Positions 40,035 to 46,819 of a stretch of 64,000 nt of DNA are shown one piece after another (the stretch's first letter is position 1; each line of letters starts with the position of its first letter). A model generated the notes under the pieces. The model was not told the origin of the DNA. It worked only from the letters and a program-made list of their open reading frames with translations, and did no database searches. The DNA comes from Spiractinospora alimapuensis (GTDB taxonomy: Bacteria; Actinomycetota; Actinomycetes; Streptosporangiales; Streptosporangiaceae). Location: positions 3,162,001 to 3,226,000 of the forward strand of contig NZ_CP072467.1 of assembly GCF_018437505.1 (NCBI RefSeq), read 5' to 3'. The position numbers and the translations under genes were made by a program.

Positions 40035-40391
40035 CTACTCCAGGGCGCAGGCCTGGCGTAGCCAGCCCGCGAAGAGTTCGACGTCCACGTCCGACGAGGT
40101 GTGGAGCTTCACCGCGGCCATGCGGCGCGCCCCGGGCTCCAAACGCCCCGACGGGTCGGTGATGTCCTGCCCCCGCCACAGACCGAAGGTGACGTACTTG
40201 GTGAAGCCCTTGATGTGGCAGACGGGGGACTGCCCCGGTCTGGCCCCGAGGCTCCACACCGGGTGTCCGTGCCAGACGGCGCCGGCGCCCGGGAGCACCT
40301 CCTCGATGACGGGGAGGAGAAGGGTGGCGATCTCGCGTTGCTCCTCGGGACGGGACGCGACGTAGTCGGCTACGGTCAGTGTGTTTGTCAT
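40035..40391 (-). CDS. DUF1801-type protein
   Basis: 118 aa: TVADYVASRPEEQREIATLLLPVIEEVLPGA with HGHPVWSLG and GFTKYVTFGLWRG, a YdhG-like DUF1801 domain. Function unknown. Its ATG overlaps the stop of the upstream DUF998 gene by ATGA, so both are translated together. A relative is at 19510-19869. Confidence 0.8.
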   Translation of the reverse strand: MTNTLTVADYVASRPEEQREIATLLLPVIEEVLPGAGAVWHGHPVWSLGARPGQSPVCHIKGFTKYVTFGLWRGQDITDPSGRLEPGARRMAAVKLHTSSDVDVELFAGWLRQACALE

Positions 40392-41116
40392 GGGTGTTCC
40401 CTGTCGTCGGTGGTGTCGTTGGGTCGGCGGCTCTGGGTACGGTGTCGGAGCTCGCGGCGCAGGAGCCACGCCGTGGTGGAGAGCCACAGCATCGCCGGGA
40501 TCACCCCGGCCGCCAGGGTGAGGGACCCCGCCGGTCCCCCGGTCATCGCCCAGCCGTTACCGAGCGGCACCGCGACTCCCGCGACGAGCGAGACCACCGA
40601 GAGACCACGCTGGCCACGGTGGCCGAAGTACCGGCGCAGGACCAGGCAGGCGACGGCGAGCGCGGTGAAGGAGATCGCCCCGGCGGCGAGGTGGCCGCCC
40701 GCGTGCCAGGAGAGCGAGTTCGGGGGTCCCGCCGGGGTCCCGACCGGGAATCCGTCGGCGGGGTCCATCACCAGCACGCCCGCGGCGACCATCCCCGCAC
40801 CGTAGACGGCGACGAGACGTGGCGCCCACGTCCCACCTGGTGCGCCCGCGAGCACGCGCCGCAGACCGACGGCACCACCGACGATCAGCACGCCCGCCAC
40901 GACGAAGTTGGTGATCTGCAACCAGCCCATCTCACCGGTGCTCAGCGCGCTGAGCGGATGCCGCAGGAGGGTGAACCCCTCTCTCGTCCCCGCCTGCGCC
41001 AGGGAGACGCACGCCCACAGCGGCCCGGCCATCGCGGCTCCGGCGAGCAGCACGGATGTGCGCGGTGGGTCCAGGGAAGGGGTGGGGTCGGTGGTCCTTG
41101 TGTGGTCGGTCGTCAT
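40388..41116 (-). CDS. DUF998 membrane protein
   Basis: 242 aa with six hydrophobic segments; REGFTLLRHPLSALSTGEMGWLQITNFVVAG and NSLSWHAGGHLAAGAISFTAL are typical of DUF998. Function unknown. ATG 41116. Coupled by a 4-bp overlap to the DUF1801 gene and divergent from the DGPF gene with a large dyad between them. Confidence 0.82.
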   Translation of the reverse strand: MTTDHTRTTDPTPSLDPPRTSVLLAGAAMAGPLWACVSLAQAGTREGFTLLRHPLSALSTGEMGWLQITNFVVAGVLIVGGAVGLRRVLAGAPGGTWAPRLVAVYGAGMVAAGVLVMDPADGFPVGTPAGPPNSLSWHAGGHLAAGAISFTALAVACLVLRRYFGHRGQRGLSVVSLVAGVAVPLGNGWAMTGGPAGSLTLAAGVIPAMLWLSTTAWLLRRELRHRTQSRRPNDTTDDREHP

Positions 41117-42871: not shown

Positions 42872-43615
42872 GTGGCCGCCCCCACGCCGGACCCCACCGA
42901 GCCCTCACTCGCCGACGCGGCGACGCAGTTCCTGGGGCACAGCCGCCTGAGTGCCGAGGCGCGCCGCTCCTACGGCCAGACCCTCCGCCGCCTCTGCCGC
43001 TCCCTCGGCGCGCACACACCCTTGTCGTCGGTGACGGCCGAGCAGGTGGCGCGGGTCTTCGACCTGGCGTGGGCGAACGCCGCCCCGGCGACGTGGAACC
43101 GCCACCGCTCCGCCCTGCGATCCTTCGGCGACTGGGTGGCCCGGGAGGACCTCGCGGCCCACCTGGGCCGACGCCCCCAGCCGCGCGTCCCCGCAGGCGG
43201 ACTGAGCCCGACCCAGTTGGAACGACTGTGGGCGCGAACCGATCTCCCGTTACGCGAACGCACGCTCTGGCGTCTCCTGCACGAGTCCGCCGCGACGACC
43301 ACACGCGTTCTCGCCCTCAACGTCGAGGACCTCGACCTGGCCGACCGCCGGGCCCGGACGGCGACCTCATGGCTCCAGTGGCGCTCCGCGACAGCCCAGC
43401 TCCTACCCCAGCTGATCGGCGACCGCACCCACGGCCCCCTGTTCCTCTCCGACCGCAAACCCGCTCCGGCCCGCACCCCAGCCGCCACCGATCTCTGCCC
43501 CGACACCGGCCGACGCCGCCTCTCCTACCCCCGCGCGGAGTACCTGTTCAAGCGGGCGACGAAGACCTTGGACCCCACCGGCGAGGGATACACCCTGCGC
43601 TGCCTGCGCGGGTGA
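42872..43615 (+). pseudogene. Tyrosine recombinase/integrase remnant
   Basis: About 247 codons from a possible GTG. An N-terminal SAM-like domain (SAEARRSYGQTLRRLCRSLG; WNRHRSALRSFGDW) is followed by part of the catalytic domain (RTLWRLLHESAATTTRVLALNVEDLDL; YLFKRATKTL). The first catalytic Arg, normally in AAR.NE.L, is missing and the protein ends at LRCLRG, where HxxR and the catalytic Tyr should follow. It is inactive. Its frame is continuous with the restored C-terminus of the sigma factor. Confidence 0.75.
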
Positions 43616-43643: not shown

Positions 43644-43796
43644 TCAGGGTTGTTTCCCGGTGCCGTTACACCCGGGGCAGGTGACCTGCACTGTCTTCTC
43701 GGGCTTCCCGGCCTCGCCGTCGCCGGTCGAGGTCTGGATCTTGCCGCTCCCTTGACACATGGAGCAGGTGACAGGGTCTTGGCGGTGCTTGGCCAT
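43644..43796 (-). CDS. 50-aa CxxCxGxG mini-protein (zinc-ribbon-like)
   Basis: A 50-residue protein with two DnaJ-type zinc motifs, CSMCQGSGK and CPGCNGTGK, separated by a flexible Gly/Asp linker containing Asp-Gly. It probably binds one zinc. Its ATG shares one base with the TGA of the upstream methyltransferase gene and has GGGGAGG, so the two are tightly coupled. Either an accessory or a substrate of that enzyme; function unknown. Confidence 0.75.
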   Translation of the reverse strand: MAKHRQDPVTCSMCQGSGKIQTSTGDGEAGKPEKTVQVTCPGCNGTGKQP

Positions 43797-44920
43797 CAGG
43801 AGAACCTCCCCTGGATCTGGTTGTCGGGGTGGTGGAGCCAGAGGCGTTGGCCTTCGGCGTCGACGGTGAGCCCGAAACGATCCATGTCCGGCTCTCCCCA
43901 TCCGACCCAGGCGAGATAGGCCGCCTCCAGTTCCCCCCACAAGTCACGCGGTCCGGACTGCGTAACCTGGGCTGTTCCTCCTCCGGACGACTGGGTCGCG
44001 AGCGCGTGGGAATCCCTGGCGACGTCCCGAAGCGCGATCCGGTAGGTTCCGTCCGTGGGGTTCGTCGCGCCGCTTCCCACCGACACCCCAGGCAACAAGG
44101 CGGCGAAGGCAAGTCGCAGCCCCGGGTTCGCGTGACCGATCCGGCGTGGGTCGACCTCGGCGACGGACTCACGGGTTTCCCCCTGGATGGGCGGACGGCC
44201 GACGCGCTGCGCGCGCAGCATCGTGTATCCGGCGCTGCCGACGCACCGCCCCACGGCGGCCGACCCCGTGGCGCTGAGCCGGACCCGGAACCCGAAGTTG
44301 TGCGGGTCCGGCATCCACGGGGCCACGATGATCCCTCCTGGGCGGGTCTGCTCCACCCAGGCGTAGGGGAACTCGCGAACACCGCAGGTGACGTGGAGAC
44401 GGTCATAGGGCGCGCCCTCGGGGGCGCCGAACGCGCCATCAACCACAAGGAGCGTCGGGGTGAACCCCATCCGTTCCAGGTTCACCCGGGCGGTGGCCGC
44501 CAATCGTTCGTCCACCTCGACGGAGGTCACGCTCGTCGAACCCAGTCGGGCCGACAGCAGACCGGCCGTCCATCCGGTGCCCGTACCGATCTCCAGTACG
44601 CGATCACCCGGATAGGGGTCGAGGAGACGCAGGAACGCGAACACCACCCCCGGCGACGAACAAGAACTCGTCCAGTCCACCACCTGCACGGCCGTTCGCG
44701 GCGACAACTCCGTCCGACCGTCGTCCACCTGGGTGATGATGGCGCTGTCCCCCAGCACCGCCTCTTCCCAGCCCCGTGGGTCCTGGTCGCGGTCGATCCA
44801 GGTGAACGCGCCCGCGTCGAACCCCCGATCCGGCACGAACGCCTTTCGGGGGGCCGCGGTCAACGCCTCGGCCCAGTCCTCGCCGGCCAACCGCACCAGC
44901 TCGTCCGGCGCACCACCCAT
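43796..44920 (-). CDS. Protein-isoaspartate methyltransferase-like (PCMT) protein
   Basis: 374 aa. SAM motif VLEIGTGTGWTAGLLSARLG, VTSVEVDE and YDRLHVTCGVREFPYAW match the PCMT fold; the N-terminus APRKAFVPDRGF is typical of long actinomycete PCMT-like enzymes, some of which modify ribosomally made peptides. The C-terminal 150 residues are an extra domain. ATG 44920 lacks a clear ribosome site. Coupled to the 50-aa Cys-rich protein downstream. Confidence 0.8.
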   Translation of the reverse strand: MGGAPDELVRLAGEDWAEALTAAPRKAFVPDRGFDAGAFTWIDRDQDPRGWEEAVLGDSAIITQVDDGRTELSPRTAVQVVDWTSSCSSPGVVFAFLRLLDPYPGDRVLEIGTGTGWTAGLLSARLGSTSVTSVEVDERLAATARVNLERMGFTPTLLVVDGAFGAPEGAPYDRLHVTCGVREFPYAWVEQTRPGGIIVAPWMPDPHNFGFRVRLSATGSAAVGRCVGSAGYTMLRAQRVGRPPIQGETRESVAEVDPRRIGHANPGLRLAFAALLPGVSVGSGATNPTDGTYRIALRDVARDSHALATQSSGGGTAQVTQSGPRDLWGELEAAYLAWVGWGEPDMDRFGLTVDAEGQRLWLHHPDNQIQGRFS

Positions 44921-45826: not shown

Positions 45827-46819
45827 ATGCGCAGCACAGACACCGTCTCCGAACCACCCACGACCACGGCGCGTCTCCCACTACGCGAGATCGTCGCCTT
45901 CGTCCTCCTGGCCTACGGCCTGGCGTGGCTCGTCTACCTCCCCGCGGTCAGCGGCGGTGCGGGCCCCGAGGACCCCATCTACGGCATCAGCGCGTCGCTC
46001 TACATGTTCACGCCGGGCGTCGCGGCCCTGCTGATCACCTACTTCCTCTGGAAACCCCGGAGCGGTCTCCGGGCACTCGGCATCGTGCCGTTGCGTCCGA
46101 TCCGCAGGGTCGGCGGCTACTCGTTGCTCGCCCTAGTCGTTCTCCCCATCGTGGGTGCGGTCGCCCCATGGGTCGCCGCCGCCTTCGGGGTGATCAAACT
46201 GGACCTCACCACCTTCTCCGGGTTCCGCGCCGCGCTGGAGGAACGTGCACCGGCCGTGGTCCCCTACCTGCCCGACGCCGGTTTCCCCCTGGTGGGGCTG
46301 CTGGTCGCCGTCGGCTTCGTGGCGGCCACGATCCTCCCGATGGTGTTGCTGACCTGCCTGGGCGAGGAGATCGGGTGGCGCGGCTACCTCCTGCCCCGCC
46401 TGCTGCCGCTCGGGGTCTGGCCGGCCCTCGTCGTGAGCGGGGTGGTGCACGCCTTCTGGCACAGCCCCCAACTCTTCCTGCAGATCCGCTCCGGCTCGAT
46501 GGACGCGGGCGTCATCGTGGTGTACGTCCTCGGGGTCACCGTGCTGGGCCTCGTGATCGGGTGGCTGCGTCTCGCCTCCGGCTCGGTGTGGCCGGCGACG
46601 ATCGCCCACGCGGCGAACAACAGCTTCGCGATCCTCGGGTTCCTCCTGGTGTCGGACGCCGACACCCCCACGAGCGCCGTCCTGTACTCCGGCAACACCG
46701 GTGGCGTGATCGGCATCGCGGTGACCCTCGCCCTGGTCGTTCCGTTGGCGCTCACCGGACAGCTTCGGGTCCGGTCCTTCGACCCGGTCCTGGAGCACGC
46801 GACCGTCCGGAAACCGTGA
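45827..46819 (+). CDS. CPBP-family intramembrane metalloprotease
   Basis: 330 aa, about eight membrane helices. The three Abi/CaaX motifs are present: GEEIGWRGYLLPRL, VVHAFWHSP and IAHAANNSF. Family members cleave prenylated or membrane substrates or protect against peptides. It lies between response regulator and kinase, and its stop overlaps the kinase GTG (GTGA), so it is probably a regulated part of this signalling operon. ATG 45827. Confidence 0.9.
   Translation: MRSTDTVSEPPTTTARLPLREIVAFVLLAYGLAWLVYLPAVSGGAGPEDPIYGISASLYMFTPGVAALLITYFLWKPRSGLRALGIVPLRPIRRVGGYSLLALVVLPIVGAVAPWVAAAFGVIKLDLTTFSGFRAALEERAPAVVPYLPDAGFPLVGLLVAVGFVAATILPMVLLTCLGEEIGWRGYLLPRLLPLGVWPALVVSGVVHAFWHSPQLFLQIRSGSMDAGVIVVYVLGVTVLGLVIGWLRLASGSVWPATIAHAANNSFAILGFLLVSDADTPTSAVLYSGNTGGVIGIAVTLALVVPLALTGQLRVRSFDPVLEHATVRKP

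Follow-up and report, generated by a model that had tools for sequence, protein, structure and literature searches.

Two overlapping genes of Spiractinospora alimapuensis very probably encode a cysimiditide (type II pamtide), in which a coupled methyltransferase modifies Asp26 of a zinc mini-protein that is its substrate. The genes lie in a 64,000-nucleotide stretch of the chromosome, called the window here; MT will denote the PCMT-like methyltransferase and mini-protein the small zinc-type cysteine protein. By analogy, and as known here from its genes, the pair is a member of an established class. In the proposed reaction the 50-amino-acid protein would fold as a Zn(Cys)4 ribbon whose hairpin tip is Asp26-Gly27, zinc would make it recognisable to the MT, and the MT would methylate the Asp26 side chain with SAM as donor. 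Closure by the backbone would expel the ester and leave an aspartimide (succinimide), which would open to isoAsp and Asp. More speculatively, the product might act on a protein partner inside the cell.

A first-pass annotation had described a PCMT-like methyltransferase and a 50-residue protein at 43644-44920 that share one base, and both open reading frames were found there, in the order MT>small. The A at 43796 belongs both to the MT stop codon TGA and to the ATG of the small gene, a GGAGG ends 8 nt upstream of that ATG, and third-position GC is 0.84 in both frames. The features are as follows.

43796..44920, minus strand: 374-aa PCMT-like peptide/protein aspartyl O-methyltransferase (PAMT), its C-terminal part extending past the PCMT match (Pfam, NCBIfam and PDB matches)
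43644..43796, minus strand: 50-aa putative precursor/substrate mini-protein, CxxCxGxG-Asp-CxxCxGxG (Pfam, profile of relatives)
43719..43721, minus strand: codon of Asp26, the predicted modified residue at the hairpin tip (sequence, relatives, low-confidence model)
43889..43909, minus strand: WVGWGEP, MT residues 338-344, which fits the WXXXGXP of RiPP-associated PIMTs (sequence; passages of PMC13001092)
43805..43809, minus strand: GGAGG, ribosome-binding-like, for the small gene and inside the MT gene (sequence)

The mini-protein (MAKHRQDPVTCSMCQGSGKIQTSTGDGEAGKPEKTVQVTCPGCNGTGKQP) has the two zinc-type Cys motifs and the Asp-Gly linker that the annotation had pointed out, namely CSMCQGSG and CPGCNGTG, separated by a segment that contains Asp26-Gly27. 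Pfam DnaJ_CXXCXGXG matches it with an E value of 7.6e-5 and 23.3 bits, under the gathering score of 32.7. An AlphaFold2 model, computed from the single sequence without an alignment and weak in confidence (pLDDT 67), is a hairpin with strands at 16-25 and 33-40, in which Asp26 comes directly after the first strand. One MT-adjacent relative (L022) is 60% identical. We considered and rejected a DnaJ chaperone: the protein has only 50 residues, its match to the central Cys-rich domain is sub-threshold, and the combination of J domain and Cys-rich domain that defines such chaperones is absent.

The PCMT domain of the MT is recognised by Pfam at residues 78-204 (E 6e-24), and solved isoaspartyl methyltransferases in the PDB (best match 1dl5) align to residues ~77-215 only. 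Past this core lies a long C-terminal part that holds WVGWGEP; WXXXGXP is given as a motif of RiPP-associated PIMTs in passages of PMC13001092. Among the matches listed, the motif occurs in 57/97 MTs of the small>MT order and in 36/41 of the MT>small order of the window pair, and since only part of the MTs have it, it does not define the group. The best NCBIfam match, near full length, is TIGR04188, the graspetide-associated methyltransferase of ATP-grasp peptide maturase systems (E 1.1e-74, residues 10-359). Membership in that family was rejected: the MT scores 252 bits where the cut-off is 380, and Pfam showed no ATP-grasp gene in the eight neighbours scanned. An anti-phage role was likewise rejected: the single PADLOC match of the MT, mad2, covers residues 91-200, which is the generic core shared by methyltransferases, and the PADLOC anti-phage library had no match for the mini-protein or for the one NEPAE protein (see below) submitted to it.

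The neighbour scan applied Pfam to eight of the nine called genes between 40035 and 49408 (gene 40388-41053 was left out). These encode DUF1801, YCII, a sigma factor, a short phage-integrase-like ORF, a response regulator, an Rce1/CAAX-protease-like membrane protein (45827-46819, on the strand opposite to the pair), a histidine kinase and a beta-lactamase-like protein. None of these eight products was recognisable as an exporter or protease dedicated to a RiPP. The integrase-like ORF (42872-43615, plus strand) looks truncated, its Pfam match being to the N-terminal SAM-like domain only; it is convergent with the small gene and ends 28 nt from it.

The class assignment draws on four properties of the locus: a two-gene cluster with a mini-protein precursor beside a PAMT, a precursor of the form CxxCxGxG - Asp - CxxCxGxG that is conserved in relatives, a PAMT of more than 300 residues with a putative extra C-terminal domain (the PCMT match ends at 204 of 374), and the absence, among the eight Pfam-scanned neighbours, of a modifying enzyme from any other class of RiPP. 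The cysimiditides FcaA-FcaM (Frankia casuarinae), TceA (T. cellulosilytica) and NalA (Nocardiopsis alba) are likewise two-gene systems of a PIMT and a CxxCxGxG-D-CxxCxGxG protein, with the central Asp and Zn ribbon that are predicted for the window pair. The cysimiditide paper, on TceA and NalA, is reportedly that of Zhu et al. 2025. The imiditides or type I pamtides (NmaA-NmaM, SpaA-SpaM) have related methyltransferases, resembling the window MT, but their precursors, unlike the mini-protein, have no cysteine motif (passages of PMC13001092 and PMC10787088). Pcm/PIMT, the protein-L-isoaspartate O-methyltransferase, shares the catalytic core, whereas the window MT has in addition the long C-terminal part and a dedicated small partner; the RiPP-type PIMT homologues also differ from Pcm/PIMT in acting on Asp, according to passages of PMC13001092.

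In cysimiditides, according to PMC10787088 (Lee et al. 2024) and the review PMC13001092 (2026), a Zn-tetracysteine mini-protein has its hairpin Asp converted to aspartimide/isoAsp by a homologue of PIMT, and zinc and the four Cys are essential for modification of the FcaA/TceA/NalA type. Passages of PMC13001092 count 125 type II pamtides, most frequent in Nocardiopsis, and describe three that were expressed, with aspartimide as the product in TceA and NalA and isoAsp in FcaA. By analogy with these relatives, we infer that Zn2+ is held by the four Cys of the window mini-protein and is required for modification, and that the window PAMT methylates Asp26 and thereby converts it to aspartimide/isoAsp. 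Of the two roles that the annotation had offered for the mini-protein, substrate with the Asp-Gly as site or zinc accessory, the former thus gains support in kind from FcaA/FcaM, TceA and NalA; the latter is weakened, zinc in the published work serving to fold the substrate.

The two genes are more than chance neighbours, as the third-position GC and relatives indicate. The 50-residue query alone matched 19 of 150 family genomes at 21 places, and a PCMT-like gene adjoins the small gene in 17 of these (exceptions L029, L033, L035 and L038). A profile of 16 rows (A3), built from MT-adjacent mini-proteins, matched 106/394 genomes of the class at E <= 1e-3, where many of the weaker matches fall within open frames of ~375-390 codons, the size expected of DnaJ; within the family it matched 111/341 genomes at E <= 1e-5 and 35 of the 68 genera. 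For the sample of mini-proteins, 80 further regions were taken from the family matches listed, with six listed matches left out; distinct mini-proteins were counted at 30 bits or more, and an MT within 250 nt on the same strand was scored as adjacent. The co-occurrence check that the annotation had proposed came out in favour of the pairing, with 143 of 163 distinct mini-proteins MT-adjacent among the matches listed, a proportion that overstates the tie because the profile was made from paired members and other kinds of relatives are under-represented. Four of the 20 unpaired mini-proteins (L181, L188, L191 and L250) are near a contig end. Among the paired matches listed, 103 have the order small>MT and 40 share the MT>small order of the window pair; both C..C.G motifs are kept in 130/143, and the tetracysteine motif is partly lost in 13, in one of them through a stop codon. 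Eight MT-adjacent members (L124, L157, L162, L168, L169, L172, L193 and L273) have one Cys changed to Tyr or Arg and retain the hairpin Asp.

The N-terminus of the window mini-protein and its relatives also has a recurrent feature: among the matches listed, 81 of the 143 MT-adjacent members begin with start-[small]-X-His (MAKH, MGKH, MGDH). Removal of Met from such a start would leave NH2-X-X-His, an ATCUN-like copper/nickel site. This idea was set aside as a curiosity; in 44/143 (again among the matches listed) no His precedes the first Cys motif, and in some the His is shifted, as in MGDGGKH (L014), MAGKH (L172) and MGH (L185). No paper came up in a literature search on ATCUN sites in RiPP precursor peptides. 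Type I precursors often start with MGKH as well, an observation that is not a count, since the scripted pick required that motif.

From the enzyme side, the window MT as query matched 61/150 family genomes at E <= 1e-60, and the loci examined, down to E 3.3e-80, comprised 25 distinct paired enzymes and 46 unpaired rows. On a second profile (A2), itself built from paired enzymes, every enzyme at 468 bits or more is paired; at 462 bits or less, pairing is limited to L226 and to L196, a split enzyme with the mini-protein after its second piece. Short upstream peptides, rich in K/P/D/G, free of Cys and of the type I pamtide/imiditide kind, were seen by eye in 10 of 16 loci that have no cysteine mini-protein. 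These limits to the pairing, together with the Cys-free peptides elsewhere, argue that peptide-modifying MTs form a larger family, of which those with a cysteine mini-protein are one bounded part. Of two scans of the genome contigs, the first gave no match and the second at least 80 loci, mostly distant methyltransferases among the matches listed. On a quick FastTree of 214 MTs with many weak forks, the label "cysteine mini-protein adjacent" required 5 changes, and gene order 4 changes among those labelled; a single origin of the cysteine type was not adopted as a firm conclusion from such a tree.

The residue at the hairpin tip is associated with the gene partner. Among the matches listed, 139 of the 143 MT-adjacent mini-proteins have Asp there (119 Asp-Gly, 14 Asp-Asn, 6 other), and four (L153, L281, L284 and L298) have Asn-Gly and are possibly repair-type or intermediate states. 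The 20 unpaired members listed comprise 10 with Asn-Gly, 8 with Asp-Gly, 1 with another Asp and 1 with neither; the other-Asp member and three of the eight Asp-Gly members are near contig ends, leaving five Asp-Gly members away from them (L174, L176, L177, L192 and L324). In nine of the ten unpaired Asn-Gly members (the exception is L291), the mini-protein gene is directly followed by one for a double zinc protein of ~100 aa (95-115 aa), whose sequence has four CxxC pairs and an EPA stretch that is invariant and often reads NEPAE. Run over the loci collected by then, a profile of this NEPAE protein matched those nine and L038; at L033 it gave a weak match that lay on the mini-protein, and it matched nothing elsewhere, hence no MT-paired locus. 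Its own Pfam and NCBIfam matches are to DnaJ or ribbon families, below the cut-offs.

As a query alone, the NEPAE protein matched 66/341 family genomes, and 33 distinct loci, 23 of them new, were examined. A mini-protein lies just upstream in 32 of the 33 (none was found at L354), and all 32 have Asn-Gly, as Pro-Glu-Asn-Gly in L038 and as Asp-Asn-Gly in L331, with L335 seen in part. In the stretches around these 33 loci no MT is directly adjacent, and the only one present, at L264, is 277 nt upstream of the mini-protein. Two-gene NEPAE units without an MT are seen at L313:1701-2164, L303, L186, L265, L326 and L335-L357. The search added 22 mini-proteins without an MT, and Fisher's exact test on 139 Asp and 4 Asn with an MT versus 0 Asp in the 22 from new NEPAE loci gives p 1e-23, a value that ignores relatedness. 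For six of eight Asn-Gly members compared with the 143 paired ones, a paired Asp member is 56-66% identical over the aligned residues; the best for L035 is 46%, and the two nearest to L186 are paired Asn-Gly members. Four genomes (G618, G628, G630 and G675) contain both the Asp/MT and the Asn-Gly/NEPAE kinds.

The first-pass annotation had tied the substrate role to the mini-protein not being widespread without the methyltransferase. That expectation failed, in that an MT-less group with the NEPAE partner is common; the substrate role itself survives, since this group has Asn-Gly in place of Asp. The distribution of Asp with the MT and Asn-Gly with another partner points, moreover, to the hairpin residue as the target of the MT.

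Three other explanations of the pair were weighed against this evidence. A role of the mini-protein as zinc accessory or specificity subunit of an MT that modifies other substrates is very unlikely: DnaJ-type ribbons do bind proteins, and adjacency in either gene order would also fit, but a subunit needs no hairpin Asp, and such a role does not predict the near-exclusive split of Asp and Asn-Gly between the two partners. Furthermore, in FcaA, TceA and NalA it is the mini-protein itself that is modified (passages of PMC13001092 and PMC10787088). It is very unlikely that the MT is an ordinary isoAsp repair enzyme which maintains an age-prone Asp-Gly in an otherwise functional zinc protein. The PIMT-like core of the MT and the four MT-adjacent members with Asn-Gly, a spontaneous isoAsp site, would suit such an arrangement, as would the restoration of Asp by PIMTs through repeated cycles (passages of PMC13001092); yet the characterised relatives methylate L-Asp itself (passages of PMC13001092 and PMC10787088), and repair would favour either loss of the labile residue or an MT alongside Asn-Gly, whereas Asn-Gly members are mostly without one. 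A chance arrangement of the genes or a spurious small ORF, for which the shortness of the frame and its score below the Pfam gathering threshold might speak, can be dismissed in view of conservation at the protein level, the spread of profile matches over half of the genera sampled and the many distinct mini-proteins with an adjacent MT.

Returning to modification of the mini-protein, Asn-Gly is a classic site of spontaneous succinimide formation, and it is also a favoured turn. Lee et al., in passages of PMC10787088, describe an Asn in a graspetide that underwent spontaneous aspartimidylation. We propose tentatively, as a possibility rather than a probability, that the mini-protein family has two largely exclusive forms which would reach the same chemistry either by MT plus Asp or by spontaneous deamidation of Asn-Gly, the NEPAE protein serving as reader of the modified hairpin or as its partner. 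The sequences suggest that the NEPAE/Asn-Gly operon could be an enzyme-free counterpart of the cysimiditides, and in both of them selection may favour the succinimide/isoAsp hairpin as the product. Alternatively, Asn-Gly may be kept for structure alone, as a favoured turn. Gly follows the tip residue in 36/36 Asn cases versus 119/139 Asp cases, which leans towards chemistry (Fisher p 0.015, only indicative, the rows being related); counter to a selected succinimide are the four MT-paired Asn-Gly members and the five unpaired Asp-Gly members away from contig ends. The passages on Asn and deamidation in PMC13001092 and PMC10787088 make no mention of an Asn-Gly zinc mini-protein, and no title in our literature searches, whose scope did not take in the cysimiditide paper, points to one.

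The genome of the window has further copies of the pair. The 50-residue query gave five matches at E <= 1 in its own genome, and beside the window pair there are a second intact pair and two decayed pairs. Two of the non-window matches adjoin an MT of the same clade. At L002/L014 the MT is 58% identical to that of the window and the mini-protein has Asp-Asn; at L003/L015 the MT is 53% identical, with Asp in place of the WXXXGXP glycine, and the mini-protein has its first Cys changed to Arg and lacks an ATG in the 30 codons that precede the motif, where a GTG is present. The mini-protein of L009/L016, its second motif truncated to CWGC-SWHR, lies upstream of an MT shortened to 222 aa. A fifth MT, 5.4-6.4 kb past the right end of the window, is split over two frames. 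Two more MTs of the family (L018 and L019) overlap genes that look ATP-grasp-like by eye and are possibly parts of graspetide clusters.

The class of the window pair was already known, and the new element from the comparison is the split between Asp and Asn according to the partner. Passages of Lee et al. (PMC10787088) call the purpose of the Asp-to-isoAsp change in such peptides "largely unknown". Asp with an MT versus Asn-Gly without one offers a natural comparison for asking whether selection maintains the succinimide/isoAsp as such. The NEPAE protein is a candidate binding partner. The genome of S. alimapuensis, with two intact pairs (one Asp-Gly, one Asp-Asn) and two decayed ones, would provide a compact test set.
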